The position numbers and the translations under genes were made by a program. A stretch of DNA of 64,000 nt from Desulfurellales bacterium (lineage in GTDB: Bacteria; Campylobacterota_A; Desulfurellia; Desulfurellales; Hippeaceae): NCBI GenBank assembly GCA_027035885.1, contig JALVTR010000171.1, positions 1 to 64,000 of the forward strand, read 5' to 3'. Shown in pieces: positions 4,418-48,648 of the stretch. The stretch's first letter is position 1; the number at the start of each line of letters is the position of its first letter. The notes under the pieces are model-generated. The model ran no database searches. It saw only the letters and a list, made by a program, of their open reading frames with translations, and had not been told where the DNA came from.

Positions 4418-6082
4418 ATGTTGTACAGGTTGTTTGTTTTCACGACTGTTACATTCATTCTTTATGTTTCCTTAGGCATAGTTTCTTACATGTTTTTTAG
4501 AAACACTTTTGATAGTTACTTTATATTACTATTCATTTCTGCTTCCCTTGGTTTTGCCGCAGTGAACTTTGCTTATTATTATGGCAAGCTAATGGTGGGC
4601 ATAGGAAGAATGAATGAGGAATTTAAAGAAATTCTATCGGACGAAAGGATAGACTTAACAAGGGACATAGACACATCGGTTGTACCGTCCATACAGATGT
4701 TCATAAGGAAGTTTAGGGAACTAACAAACACTATAATAGGTAATCTCATTACAGCCGCAGGTAAAGCCAGCATATTTAGTGCCAAATTTAACTTTGAACT
4801 CAAGAAAACGATTAAAGCTATAAACGAAAATATGGAACAGTTTGATGCCATAAATTCAACAATGCAAGATGCGTCAAGAGCTATAACAGACATATCGAAG
4901 AATGTAGAGGAATTTAGCGAATTCATGAGTGAAGTTGAACGGGCAGCCAAAGAGGTTTTATCCATTTCTGAAAATGTAGAAAAGGATATGGAAGCCAACG
5001 TCGAAATGATGGAAAGAGGCAAGAAGACAATTAACGAACTTGGTGATAACCTGAAAAATATCTCAAATATAGTTAACGTCATAAACGATATAGCAGACCA
5101 GACTAATCTATTGGCTTTAAACGCTGCAATAGAAGCCGCCCGTGCTGGCGAAGCAGGCCGTGGCTTTGCCGTTGTCGCAGATGAGGTGAGAAAATTAGCG
5201 GAGAAAACGCAATCAAACGCTCAGGAAATATACGAAATGATAAACACGGTTAGTGAGAATGCAGAAAAACTTATTGGGCAAAATTTGCAGGTGGCACAAA
5301 AGATAAAGGAAAGCGGTGATGAAACAGCAAAGATAAAAAGCACCTTTGAAAGTGTGGTAGGCGAGATAGAGAGGGCGTCCCAAATGCTTTCAAATATAAC
5401 AGCTTCGGTAGAAGAACAATCGGCATCAATTGAGGAAGTGACGCAAACGGTTACGACGGTAACGGAATCCACCCGTGAGGTAGTGAATGGTTTAAATGAA
5501 GTTGCAAATCAGAGTGTTGATTTAACGGAAGTGTCAAGCCAAGCATTCAGAATGCTTCAGAAATTAAAATTAAATCATCCTTTTGAGGAAACATATAAGC
5601 TATTAAGGGAGGGGAAAAAAGAAATAGAAGATATCATTAATGAGTCAATTAAAAAAGGCACTATATCATCATCAGATATTTGGGATAGAAATTATAAGCC
5701 GATTCCAAATACAAATCCACAGAAATACGAAGCAAGGTTTGCGGACTTTTTTAAGAAATATATTAAACCCATTGAGGATAAATATATGGCTAAAGATAGC
5801 AAGCTCAAATATTTTGTGATTACCGATGATAGGGGTTACGTACCGGCACACAACTCAATCTACGATGAACCAGAAACAGGCGATTATGAAAGAGATTTGG
5901 TGCATAGTAGATCTAAGAGAATTTATGATGACCCGATAAGTCGTGCTTGTATCAATAATACGGAACCTCTTCTAATTCAAACCTATTTGAGAGATACAGG
6001 TAATGCAATGATAGATATGTCCGCACCTATCTATGTAGATGGTAGGCATTGGGGGACGTTAAGGACGGGGTTTGGCGTTTAG
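4418..6082 (+). CDS. Methyl-accepting chemotaxis protein with C-terminal sensor-like domain
   Basis: This is a 554-residue chemoreceptor. Two hydrophobic segments (about 5-27 and 33-57) sit close together with almost no periplasmic loop, so sensing is probably cytoplasmic or within the membrane. The signalling coiled coil (about 110-385) carries the conserved hairpin tip around [20 protein letters not shown]. After it comes a domain of about 150 residues (400-554) with [15 protein letters not shown] and [10 protein letters not shown]. This layout is seen in a group of proteobacterial receptors in which the C-terminal part is thought to be a PAS/Cache-like sensor. The start is set by GAAGGGGG before the ATG. 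It would couple to CheA/CheW, which are not in this window. Confidence 0.9.
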
Positions 6083-6768
6083 CCACCCGTCAGTTTTTCC
6101 GCTTGCTAAGCTGATAGAGCCCATAAACATGTGGATTCGACAGCTCAGTTCTTAGTTTCAATTGTTTTATTCCCTTGTAATTAAAGCTACTTAATTGTCT
6201 TTAGCTCAAACTCTAAAATTTGAAATATGCACGTTCCTTTCAGAAAAAGAAATAGTGCAAAGGACTTTTTAAAAATCCTGTTTCTGTAATGATAGAACTT
6301 GATAATGACATTATCAAGTTCTTGTATACCTTTATAAAAAACAACATTTTTCGCTGTATAAGAAATAGGTCTAATTTCGTTGAAAAAGGTCACTTTTAAT
6401 AGGTTTTTTGACAATCAAAAAAAGCATATCAATTCCAGTTTCTTCCCTTATCTATACCATTTCCCATGAAAAATCAAGAAAAATGCATTAAGAAAACCCG
6501 CACAATAAATTTCTTTGGTTAATAGTCTGTGAAATATGAAAAATAAAGCCCATTTGTCCTGTTTTTATTGTTTTCTACGTTGGTGATTGATGGAGGTGTA
6601 AAAAGTGAGATTAAGAGCTTATTTAGAAATTTCTATACAATTTTTCTTTGTTGTTTTTAAAATTTACTAATTTTAAGGTTTTCCCATTATCTTTTAACTT
6701 TTCATGGTCATTTTTTATGTTTAAATCTTATGAAATAATAAATTATTGGAAAAAAGGAGGTTGTTGCT
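6083..6768. other. Non-coding interval between chemoreceptor and lemA
   Basis: About 690 bp without a convincing gene. The minus-strand frame 6187-6414 has no family features and spans a perfect palindrome, so it was not accepted. A very short frame with a good ribosome site (GGAGGTG then GTG at 6605, 22 codons) may be a leader peptide or chance. The segment just before lemA is extremely AT-rich and probably holds its promoter. Confidence 0.5.
6295..6321. repeat. Perfect 27-bp palindrome
   Basis: Two 13-base arms, GAACTTGATAATG and CATTATCAAGTTC, are perfect reverse complements around a single central A. There is no T-run on either side, so it is not a normal rho-independent terminator. The odd-length symmetry fits a dimeric operator or a recombinase/resolution site. 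The nearest genes are the chemoreceptor about 210 bp to the left and lemA about 450 bp to the right. Confidence 0.8.
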
Positions 6769-7335
6769 ATGAACGGTACTACTGGATTAATAGTTTTAGC
6801 GGTAATTTTTGGAATACTATTATTTATAATTTTCCTGTATAATAGTTTAATCTATAAAAAAAACCAGATAGATAACATTACTGGTTCCATCGACACCTTA
6901 CTTAAGAAAAGGTTTGACTTAATTCCTAACCTCGTTGAAGCCGTAAAGCAATATATGAATTACGAAAACAAGCTCATCAAGGATGTGGTTGAGTTGAGAT
7001 CGAAAGCTTCTGCTGTTTCAAATTTAAAGAGCAAATTGGAATTGGAGGACGAACTTAAAGAAAAACTGGATATTCTGTTTGTAAATTTTGAGAATTATCC
7101 GGATTTAAAGACAAGCAACAATTTATTGCAGCTGCAACTAGAATTGAGCGATATAGAGTCACAAATCAGTGCGGCAAGGAGAACCTATAGCCAGGTTGTT
7201 ACAGAGTTCAATAATACGTTAGAGATGTTTCCCACTAACATAGTTGCTTCTTTCTTGGGTTATAAACGACGAGAAGTTTTTTTTATACCTGAAGGAGAAA
7301 GGAAAAACATTGATTTAAGGAATTTGTTTAAGTAG
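6769..7335 (+). CDS. lemA: LemA family protein
   Basis: A 188-residue protein with one N-terminal membrane anchor (about 5-27) followed by a helical domain. The LemA hallmark is visible: YNSLIYKKNQIDN and then a helix with KKRFDLIPNLVEAVKQYMNYE. The C-terminal FPTNIVASFLGYKRREVFF also fits the family. The molecular function of LemA is not established. It is followed after 12 bp by a DUF3137 gene, a recurrent pairing. AAAAGGAGG precedes the ATG, so the start is secure. Confidence 0.93.
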   Translation: MNGTTGLIVLAVIFGILLFIIFLYNSLIYKKNQIDNITGSIDTLLKKRFDLIPNLVEAVKQYMNYENKLIKDVVELRSKASAVSNLKSKLELEDELKEKLDILFVNFENYPDLKTSNNLLQLQLELSDIESQISAARRTYSQVVTEFNNTLEMFPTNIVASFLGYKRREVFFIPEGERKNIDLRNLFK

Positions 7336-8502: not shown

Positions 8503-8763
8503 ATGACACAACAAAAAGCAGTTATCAAGAACATGGACCATTTAGGACTGATAGCCGGTATGATAGATGAACTAAAGATTAAAGAAACTATAGATGATGC
8601 AATACAATCATCAAGTAAATCAAAGAACCTAAGCTATGGTGAAGCAACAAAGGCAATGATTCTTAACGGTCTTGGTTATGTTAACAAACAGCTCTACCTA
8701 ACACCTAAAATCTTGACTTATCTGGACACTTGTGTAAAACATAGAAAAGAGAAAGGATTTTAA
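8503..8763 (+). pseudogene. Truncated IS1634-family transposase (N-terminal domain only)
   Basis: The 86-residue frame starts with the N-terminal DUF4277-like region of IS1634 transposases (MDHLGLIAGMIDELKIKETID, continuing to a helix ending LGYVNKQLYLTP). After residue 68 or so the similarity stops and an unrelated tail (ILTYLDTCVKHRKEKGF) leads to the stop. A full transposase would be several hundred residues and carry a DDE core, which is absent. The junction probably marks another insertion or a deletion. Confidence 0.7.
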
Positions 8764-31316: not shown

Positions 31317-32501
31317 ATGGCAAAGGAAAAATACGTAAGAACCAAACCCCATGTTAACATCGGCACAATCGGTCACATAGACCATGGTAAGACAACCCTT
31401 ACAGCTGCCATCACAAAGGTACTGGCAGAGAAGGGTAAGGCAGAGTTCAAAGACTACAACGAAATTGACAACGCTCCAGAGGAGAAGGAAAGAGGTATCA
31501 CAATCAACACTGCCCACGTAGAGTACGAGACAGAGAAACGTCACTATGCACACGTAGACTGCCCAGGGCATGCTGACTACATCAAGAATATGATTACCGG
31601 TGCAGCCCAGATGGACGGTTCTATACTTGTTGTCTCTGCAGCGGATGGTCCAATGCCACAGACACGTGAGCACATACTCCTTGCAAGGCAGGTTAACGTT
31701 CCATACATTGTGGTATTCTTGAACAAAACAGACATGGTTGATGACCCAGAACTCATAGACCTTGTTGAAATGGAAGTAAGGGACTTGCTCTCAAAATACG
31801 ACTACCCAGGTGATGATGTACCTATAATAAAAGGTTCAGCTCTGAAAGCACTTGAAGGTGACCCTAAAGCAATAAAGGCAATAGAAGAGTTAATGGATGC
31901 TGTTGATGAATACATACCAACACCACAGAGAGAATCAGATAAACCATTCCTCATGCCAATCGAGGACATCTTCTCAATCTCCGGTAGAGGAACAGTTGTT
32001 ACAGGTAGGGTAGAAAGAGGAGTATTAAAGCCAGGTGAAGAGGTAGAAATCGTAGGCTTTAAGGAGACGAGAAAGACAGTTGCCACATCCCTTGAGATGT
32101 TCAGGAAGATCTTGGATGAGGCAATAGCAGGTGACAACGTAGGAGTTCTCTTAAGGGGCATCAAGAAGGAAGAGGTTGAAAGAGGAATGGTTTTAGCCAA
32201 ACCTGGCTCCATAACGCCACACAAGAAATTCAAAGCTCAGGTTTACGTTCTCACCAAGGATGAGGGTGGAAGACACACACCATTCTTTGATGGCTATAGA
32301 CCTCAGTTCTACATAAGAACAACAGATGTTACAGGAACAGTTCATCTACCCGAGGGCGTAGAGATGGTTATGCCTGGTGACAACGTAGAGCTAACAGTTG
32401 AACTCATAGCACCTGTTGCCCTTGAGAAAGAGACACGCTTTGCAATCAGGGAAGGTGGTAGAACAGTTGGTGCTGGTGTAATAACGGAGATATTGGAGTA
32501 A
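31317..32501 (+). CDS. tuf: Elongation factor Tu, copy 1
   Basis: A 394-residue EF-Tu with [17 protein letters not shown] and NKTD nucleotide-binding motifs, which delivers aminoacyl-tRNA to the ribosome. AAGGAGG precedes the ATG. The coding sequence appears identical at DNA level to tuf copy 2 (47464) up to the stop codon (TAA here, TGA there). Codon choice differs from neighbouring ribosomal genes, with more C-ending codons. The gene joins an upstream tRNA cluster to rpmG, tRNA-Trp, secE and nusG. Confidence 0.98.
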
Positions 32502-47463: not shown

Positions 47464-48648
47464 ATGGCAAAGGAAAAATACGTAAGAACCAAACCCCATG
47501 TTAACATCGGCACAATCGGTCACATAGACCATGGTAAGACAACCCTTACAGCTGCCATCACAAAGGTACTGGCAGAGAAGGGTAAGGCAGAGTTCAAAGA
47601 CTACAACGAAATTGACAACGCTCCAGAGGAGAAGGAAAGAGGTATCACAATCAACACTGCCCACGTAGAGTACGAGACAGAGAAACGTCACTATGCACAC
47701 GTAGACTGCCCAGGGCATGCTGACTACATCAAGAATATGATTACCGGTGCAGCCCAGATGGACGGTTCTATACTTGTTGTCTCTGCAGCGGATGGTCCAA
47801 TGCCACAGACACGTGAGCACATACTCCTTGCAAGGCAGGTTAACGTTCCATACATTGTGGTATTCTTGAACAAAACAGACATGGTTGATGACCCAGAACT
47901 CATAGACCTTGTTGAAATGGAAGTAAGGGACTTGCTCTCAAAATACGACTACCCAGGTGATGATGTACCTATAATAAAAGGTTCAGCTCTGAAAGCACTT
48001 GAAGGTGACCCTAAAGCAATAAAGGCAATAGAAGAGTTAATGGATGCTGTTGATGAATACATACCAACACCACAGAGAGAATCAGATAAACCATTCCTCA
48101 TGCCAATCGAGGACATCTTCTCAATCTCCGGTAGAGGAACAGTTGTTACAGGTAGGGTAGAAAGAGGAGTATTAAAGCCAGGTGAAGAGGTAGAAATCGT
48201 AGGCTTTAAGGAGACGAGAAAGACAGTTGCCACATCCCTTGAGATGTTCAGGAAGATCTTGGATGAGGCAATAGCAGGTGACAACGTAGGAGTTCTCTTA
48301 AGGGGCATCAAGAAGGAAGAGGTTGAAAGAGGAATGGTTTTAGCCAAACCTGGCTCCATAACGCCACACAAGAAATTCAAAGCTCAGGTTTACGTTCTCA
48401 CCAAGGATGAGGGTGGAAGACACACACCATTCTTTGATGGCTATAGACCTCAGTTCTACATAAGAACAACAGATGTTACAGGAACAGTTCATCTACCCGA
48501 GGGCGTAGAGATGGTTATGCCTGGTGACAACGTAGAGCTAACAGTTGAACTCATAGCACCTGTTGCCCTTGAGAAAGAGACACGCTTTGCAATCAGGGAA
48601 GGTGGTAGAACAGTTGGTGCTGGTGTAATAACGGAGATATTGGAGTGA
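47464..48648 (+). CDS. tuf: Elongation factor Tu, copy 2
   Basis: A 394-residue EF-Tu with the same protein sequence as copy 1 at 31317. The two genes also appear the same base for base within the coding region, including shadow frames on both strands, with flanks that diverge immediately (AAGGAGGCTTTT versus AAGGAGGCTGTT before the ATG and different stop codons). This indicates continuing gene conversion confined to the gene. It ends the str operon and is followed by rpsJ. Confidence 0.98.

Follow-up and report, generated by a model that had tools for sequence, protein, structure and literature searches.

A probable HspR-type operator in the relic of a type III CRISPR leader from a Desulfurellales bacterium

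The palindrome and its neighbouring genes

The interval at positions 6083-6768 of the window (the whole stretch of DNA analysed, 64,000 nucleotides long) separates a chemoreceptor gene (4418-6082, plus strand, Pfam PF00015) from lemA (6769-7335, plus strand, Pfam PF04011). Within this interval, a perfect palindrome of sequence AGAACTTGATAATG-A-CATTATCAAGTTCT was found at 6294-6322. A sequence-only reading had described it as 27 bp long (6295-6321); the 13-bp arms and the single-base centre hold, but A6294 also pairs with T6322, which makes each arm one base pair longer and brings the true length to 29 bp (14+1+14, centre A6308). No other perfect palindrome in the 64-kb window, odd or even, reaches an arm length of 11 bp. 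As only about 5e-4 odd palindromes with 14-bp arms are expected by chance per window of this size, the earlier view that a chance origin is very unlikely was upheld. The reported lack of a T-run was borne out as well: no terminator was found at the palindrome, which does not show the G+C-rich stem and T-run of an intrinsic terminator, and the region gave no match in Rfam.

The same reading had proposed a search of the genome for the arm, a single copy being taken to indicate a site for recombination or resolution. In the host genome (1.95 Mb), the exact 13-mer arm is present at the window palindrome only, and no regulon could be traced in this way. By the proposed rule this would mean recombination; the exact-arm search, however, was too strict. 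Elsewhere in the window, two identical tuf (EF-Tu) genes (31317-32501 and 47464-48648) represent an ordinary duplication.

Remains of a CRISPR locus

When the 686-bp interval was searched against related genomes, matches of about 67-75% identity to window 6234-6534 were obtained, many of them at contig ends. Two are in the host genome (contigs C88 and C133) and the others in several related Desulfurellales genomes (Campylobacterota), mostly metagenome-assembled. At these homologues, tandem 35-nt repeats (GTCGTAATTCCCTTCAGAAACGGAAATAGTGCAAC, in window orientation) alternate with spacers at a period of about 75 and are followed by the conserved non-coding stretch, which adjoins the first repeat of the array as a CRISPR leader does. 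In several genomes the leader runs directly into cas1, then into two tandem cas2 genes and type III genes, the latter being of type III-B (Cmr1, Cmr2) in the host genome and of type III-A (Csm1-5) in others. The tandem cas2 genes are dissimilar (about 33% identical; L095:1242-1792, also L025, L030, L105 and L108), and a Cas2 heterodimer is possible. The exact CRISPR repeat was not found assembled in the host genome. Two of its contigs carry identical leader sequence and start at the same base of it (L094:1-127 and L095:1-127) and, since the contigs carrying leaders begin just inside the leader, the CRISPR arrays were probably lost in assembly. One match to the leader motif in a Clostridia metagenome-assembled genome (L027) had neither repeat nor dyad and was set aside as chance.

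By comparison with these homologues, window 6234-6608 is a relic CRISPR leader, made up of a decayed repeat, a leader of about 280 bp and the former cas1 upstream region down to its Shine-Dalgarno sequence. The statement that the palindrome lies alone in a gene-free interval was in this respect misleading. The decayed leader-proximal repeat (6234-6260, minus strand) keeps 24 of 27 letters of the relatives' repeat, has lost the outer end of the 35-nt unit and bears four private changes at 20 otherwise invariant columns. The leader itself (6261-6540, minus strand, array side at the left) is closest by identity to the leaders of G002, G004 and G006-C101 (70-72%), the two other leaders of the host being marginally below (69%). 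It includes a motif conserved in the aligned leaders (ACAACATTTYYYGCTGTAYRAGAAA, 6341-6365) and a candidate promoter reading toward the lost array (6449-6477, minus strand), with a -35 box TTGATT (6477-6472), a 17-bp spacer and a -10 box TAGATA (6454-6449). In the far part of the aligned leaders, TTGACT-N17-TAGATA/TATAAA recurs in the same direction and, judged from its sequence, is likely a sigma-70-like array promoter. Several intact leaders have a second inverted repeat, TTGACAGGTTTTT..AAAAACCTGTCAA, of which the window retains a decayed form (6400-6440).

On the far side of the leader, 6554-6608 (plus strand) matched, in a local alignment, the region upstream of cas1 in G005 C56, and none of 1000 shuffles did as well. 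The stretch holds a Shine-Dalgarno sequence GGAGGTG (6592-6598) and a former start codon GTG at 6605, the window reading GATGGAGGTG...GTG against AATGGAGGTG...ATG. No cas1 reading frame follows 6608 in the window; lemA stands where cas1 formerly began, and of the cas genes only the cas1 upstream region is left at this locus. Nor does the window contain a spacer array. A second decayed repeat was sought at 6155-6190, where only the 8-mer ATTCCCTT fits, and was rejected by eye. Because there is a single decayed repeat and no array, the window copy is called a relic and not an active leader. It differs at 17 of the 109 columns where all other leaders agree, the most of any leader (0-9 for the others). 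Thus, the window copy offers a clear example of what remains of a lost CRISPR locus: the leader, its putative operator and the cas1 Shine-Dalgarno sequence.

In related genomes the chemoreceptor gene is located elsewhere, lemA is not linked to the leader and the two genes are not neighbours; the palindrome site is conserved with the CRISPR leader and not with these flanking genes. Since both genes lie elsewhere in relatives, the loss or rearrangement at the window is an event of its own lineage. The flanks at 6060-6228 and 6600-6768 have no meaningful counterpart in relatives. Just downstream of the lemA operon lies a short transposase-like fragment (8503-8763), possibly connected with the rearrangement by which the CRISPR locus was lost. 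Another leader setting without cas genes, comparable to that of the window, is seen in G005, where the leader of an array (L020/L026, around 860) lies directly upstream of an rpiB-like gene instead of cas1. In G001, the palindrome region of the leaders on contigs C14, C15 and C11 (L084:182-300, L086:576-700 and L088, minus strand) is replaced by an element of about 100 bp with inverted ends TCCAGCACTTACTT. In one copy, the inside of this element has the opposite orientation to that in the others, and it resembles a small mobile or invertible element.

Conservation of the dyad and its likeness to heat-shock sites

At the corresponding place, most leaders have an inverted repeat built around the same single central base, 47 bp away from the first repeat. 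Among 11 distinct leaders, pairing was seen in 86% of cells, compared with 34-47% once the partners had been slid by 1-3 columns. Covariation beyond column make-up is modest, the observed score being reached by 41 of 500 shuffles. A G:C pair in the middle of the arms is broken in five of the 11 leaders and the half-sites vary independently, a pattern more in keeping with a dimer-binding DNA site than with an RNA stem. That the palindrome works as RNA, by forming a hairpin or a weak terminator once the leader is transcribed, would agree with the strong folding of the strand (z -3.9) and with the candidate promoter, which would place the palindrome inside the transcript. Against this stand, besides the broken pair and the separate variation of each half-site, the failure of RNAalifold to find a consensus fold, the lack of an Rfam match and of a T-run, and the occurrence of the same dyad at chaperone promoters. 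We regard an RNA role as very improbable.

HspR is a heat-shock repressor of the MerR family, and its operator in Streptomyces, Helicobacter and Campylobacter is the HspR-associated inverted repeat, HAIR. When the leader-dyad pattern was scanned over 16 genomes, the matches were mainly leaders and heat-shock promoters. With up to two mismatches allowed, the host genome gave exactly four: the window, the two other leaders and a site (G000:C135:72718) in the promoter between hsp20-clpB and dnaJ-hspR. This hsp20/dnaJ-hspR promoter was also matched in G005, G007, G012 and G013, and the hrcA-grpE-dnaK promoter in G013. The hspR gene is present in 15 of the 16 family genomes (in one, it is cut by a contig end), and all 15 have two such sites between hsp20 and dnaJ-hspR, 66-99 bp apart. 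The best NCBIfam match of the host regulator is HspR (1.3e-29); it scores 102 bits on NF047375, just below the cut-off of 105, which three family genomes reach. CIRCE, the operator of HrcA (TTAGCACTC-N9-GAGTGCTAA), was rejected, both arms differing in sequence from the window palindrome.

In order to avoid circularity, a matrix was built from 28 heat-shock sites alone. The 25-mer 6296-6320 scores 30.1 bits with this matrix, within the range of the training sites (19.4 to 34.8, median 29.0), and 29.9 when the heat-shock sites of its own genome are omitted; the next best site in the 64-kb window scores 9.5 bits, and the background rate of sites reaching 18 bits is 0.05 per Mb. Ten of the 11 leader types score 18.9-32.9. 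In 636 kb of DNA, chosen partly by the pattern, the strong sites outside the training set are almost all leaders. One 30-bit HAIR-like site (L136:1860-1884, at G007:C1:678359) falls outside both the chaperone promoters and the recognised leaders; the DNA next to it is flanked by an inverted pair, GTTGCACGA/TCGTGCAAC. The remaining leader type (G014 C94 and G006 C133) has a poor site of 13.6 bits, though both genomes have hspR. G003 (L106, a single 1.74-Mb contig), the only family genome without hspR, has a leader of the same type with a degraded site of 18.9 bits; this is suggestive as a co-occurrence only, since the sites of the hspR-bearing G014 C94 and G006 C133 are weaker still.

Taken together, it is quite likely that the palindrome is a HAIR-type HspR operator built into a type III CRISPR leader and now left in a relic one; its core CTTGATA-N7-TATCAAG (6298-6318) is recognised by matrix score and layout. 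Between the two roles that the sequence-only reading had contemplated, the evidence thus favours an operator, a degenerate site being found upstream of chaperone operons and in CRISPR leaders. A site for recombination or resolution, or the end of a mobile element, might have been suggested by the uniqueness of the exact arm and by leader copies lying at contig ends, as repeats do; however, identical leaders and CRISPR repeats account for these ends, and no recombinase gene was noticed among the open reading frames beside the palindrome or beside related sites. Moreover, 370 bp of flanking sequence correspond to a leader and cas1 upstream region, and the site itself corresponds to the operators of chaperone genes. 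This possibility is given almost no credence.

Our first idea was that the dyad served as a Cas1 docking site only, and it was displaced by the heat-shock match. In its wider form, the dyad would be a CRISPR-adaptation element proper, a stem-loop or dyad for Cas1-Cas2 or an accessory factor, with the likeness to HspR sites secondary or coincidental. The distance to the integration point, fixed at 47 bp in all intact leaders, speaks for such an element, as does the binding of Cas1 to a leader-proximal stem-loop in the Sulfolobus islandicus I-A system (PMC9456107). That stem-loop, however, lies at -25 to +7, its stem is short (7 bp) and its binding shows no preference for sequence (PMC9456107). 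Furthermore, the 30-bit heat-shock match is far beyond chance, and the half-site variants CTTTATA and CTATAAAG are common to leaders and chaperone promoters of the same genomes. An adaptation element proper therefore appears improbable.

The perfection of the arms, as distinct from the site itself, could be a mutational by-product of template switching in an imperfect inverted repeat during leader decay, which is compatible with a HAIR-type operator. Six positions of the arms have changed relative to the sister-leader consensus, and together they make up three complete complementary pairs (for placement alone, the probability by chance is about 0.001); quasipalindrome correction of this kind is known (PMC7202029). 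On the other hand, the intact leader of G011 is equally perfect over 27 bp, and the operator score rose (30.1, compared with 25-29), as would also be expected if a binding site were under selection. In simulated decay from likely ancestors at the leader's own rate (0.16), a score of 30.1 was reached in 0.1-4% of cases. This rarity and the paired arm changes point to longer selection on the operator than on the repeat, to template switching, or to both; template switching as the source of the perfection is considered rather unlikely. An operator selected for longer may now serve the surroundings of lemA.

Proposed role and comparison with known systems

The putative operator has the likely array promoter on one side and the first repeat on the other, with its centre 47 bp from the point of spacer integration. 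In H. pylori, HspR covers 70-80 bp around its operator (PMC6102357) and, with the centre at 47 bp, such coverage would extend nearly to the leader-repeat junction. With the help of DnaK, as described for known systems, HspR would bind the leader site and hold back elongation of the pre-crRNA, access of Cas1-Cas2 to the leader-repeat junction, or both; it would let go once heat or another protein-folding stress titrates the chaperones, by the known mechanism of release through DnaK titration (PMC4534711). Through the operator, HspR probably gates transcription of the array, acquisition of spacers, or both. At the chaperone promoters, the left half-site apparently doubles as the -35 box, with a -10 box right behind; since most leaders have no such -10 box, the mode of action must differ there. 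By analogy with IHF elsewhere, HspR could also have a positive architectural role at the leader.

We propose, tentatively and at somewhat less than even confidence, that HspR of the Desulfurellales sits on CRISPR leaders and gates type III memory formation and/or crRNA supply, so that titration of chaperones by heat or by phage protein synthesis switches adaptation on. In the window, the repeat, the array and cas1 are lost, and the site is therefore left with no CRISPR locus to control; its persistence may be due to the recency of the loss or to HspR acting today on the lemA neighbourhood. The recurrence of the site in intact leaders of related vent bacteria suggests that heat-shock control is wired to CRISPR memory. 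An operator maintained across a bacterial family at a fixed distance from the integration point would tie this memory to protein-folding stress through a simple DNA element, and the HspR regulon would gain a defence system. The direct regulators of CRISPR leaders known so far are few, namely H-NS/LeuO, CRP and Csa3. In open-access full text, the scope of our search, no paper linking HspR or HAIR to CRISPR leaders was found, and a review of CRISPR regulation does not mention HspR (PMC10013973). Each part is of a known kind; their combination, so far as this search can tell, is new.

Compared with the published HspR operator (CTTGAGT-N7-ACTCAAG, 21 bp; PMC7464140), the window core has the same layout and spacing (CTTGA..-N7-..TCAAG, 21 bp) and 10 of 14 identical core letters, the chaperone site of the host genome itself having nine of 14. 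Like HAIR, the sites of this family are found at the hsp20-clpB, dnaJ-hspR and hrcA-grpE-dnaK promoters, targets equal to those known for HspR in C. jejuni (PMC7464140, PMC4534711). Unlike HAIR, they have family-specific arms, CTTGAYA instead of CTTGAGT, and are also present in CRISPR leaders, about 130 bp behind the likely array promoter. With type III CRISPR leaders (cas1-cas2 and Csm or Cmr), the window copy shares the repeat junction, an AT-rich leader with a promoter and the position of cas1 at the far end, whereas it is without array and cas1 and carries the putative heat-shock operator. The I-A leader of S. islandicus, with its Cas1 stem-loop and the distal motif of Csa3a (PMC9456107), differs in being archaeal and of type I-A, in the regulator family and in the distance; the likeness lies in a dyad near the leader-repeat junction and in a transcription factor affecting both the leader and the uptake of spacers.
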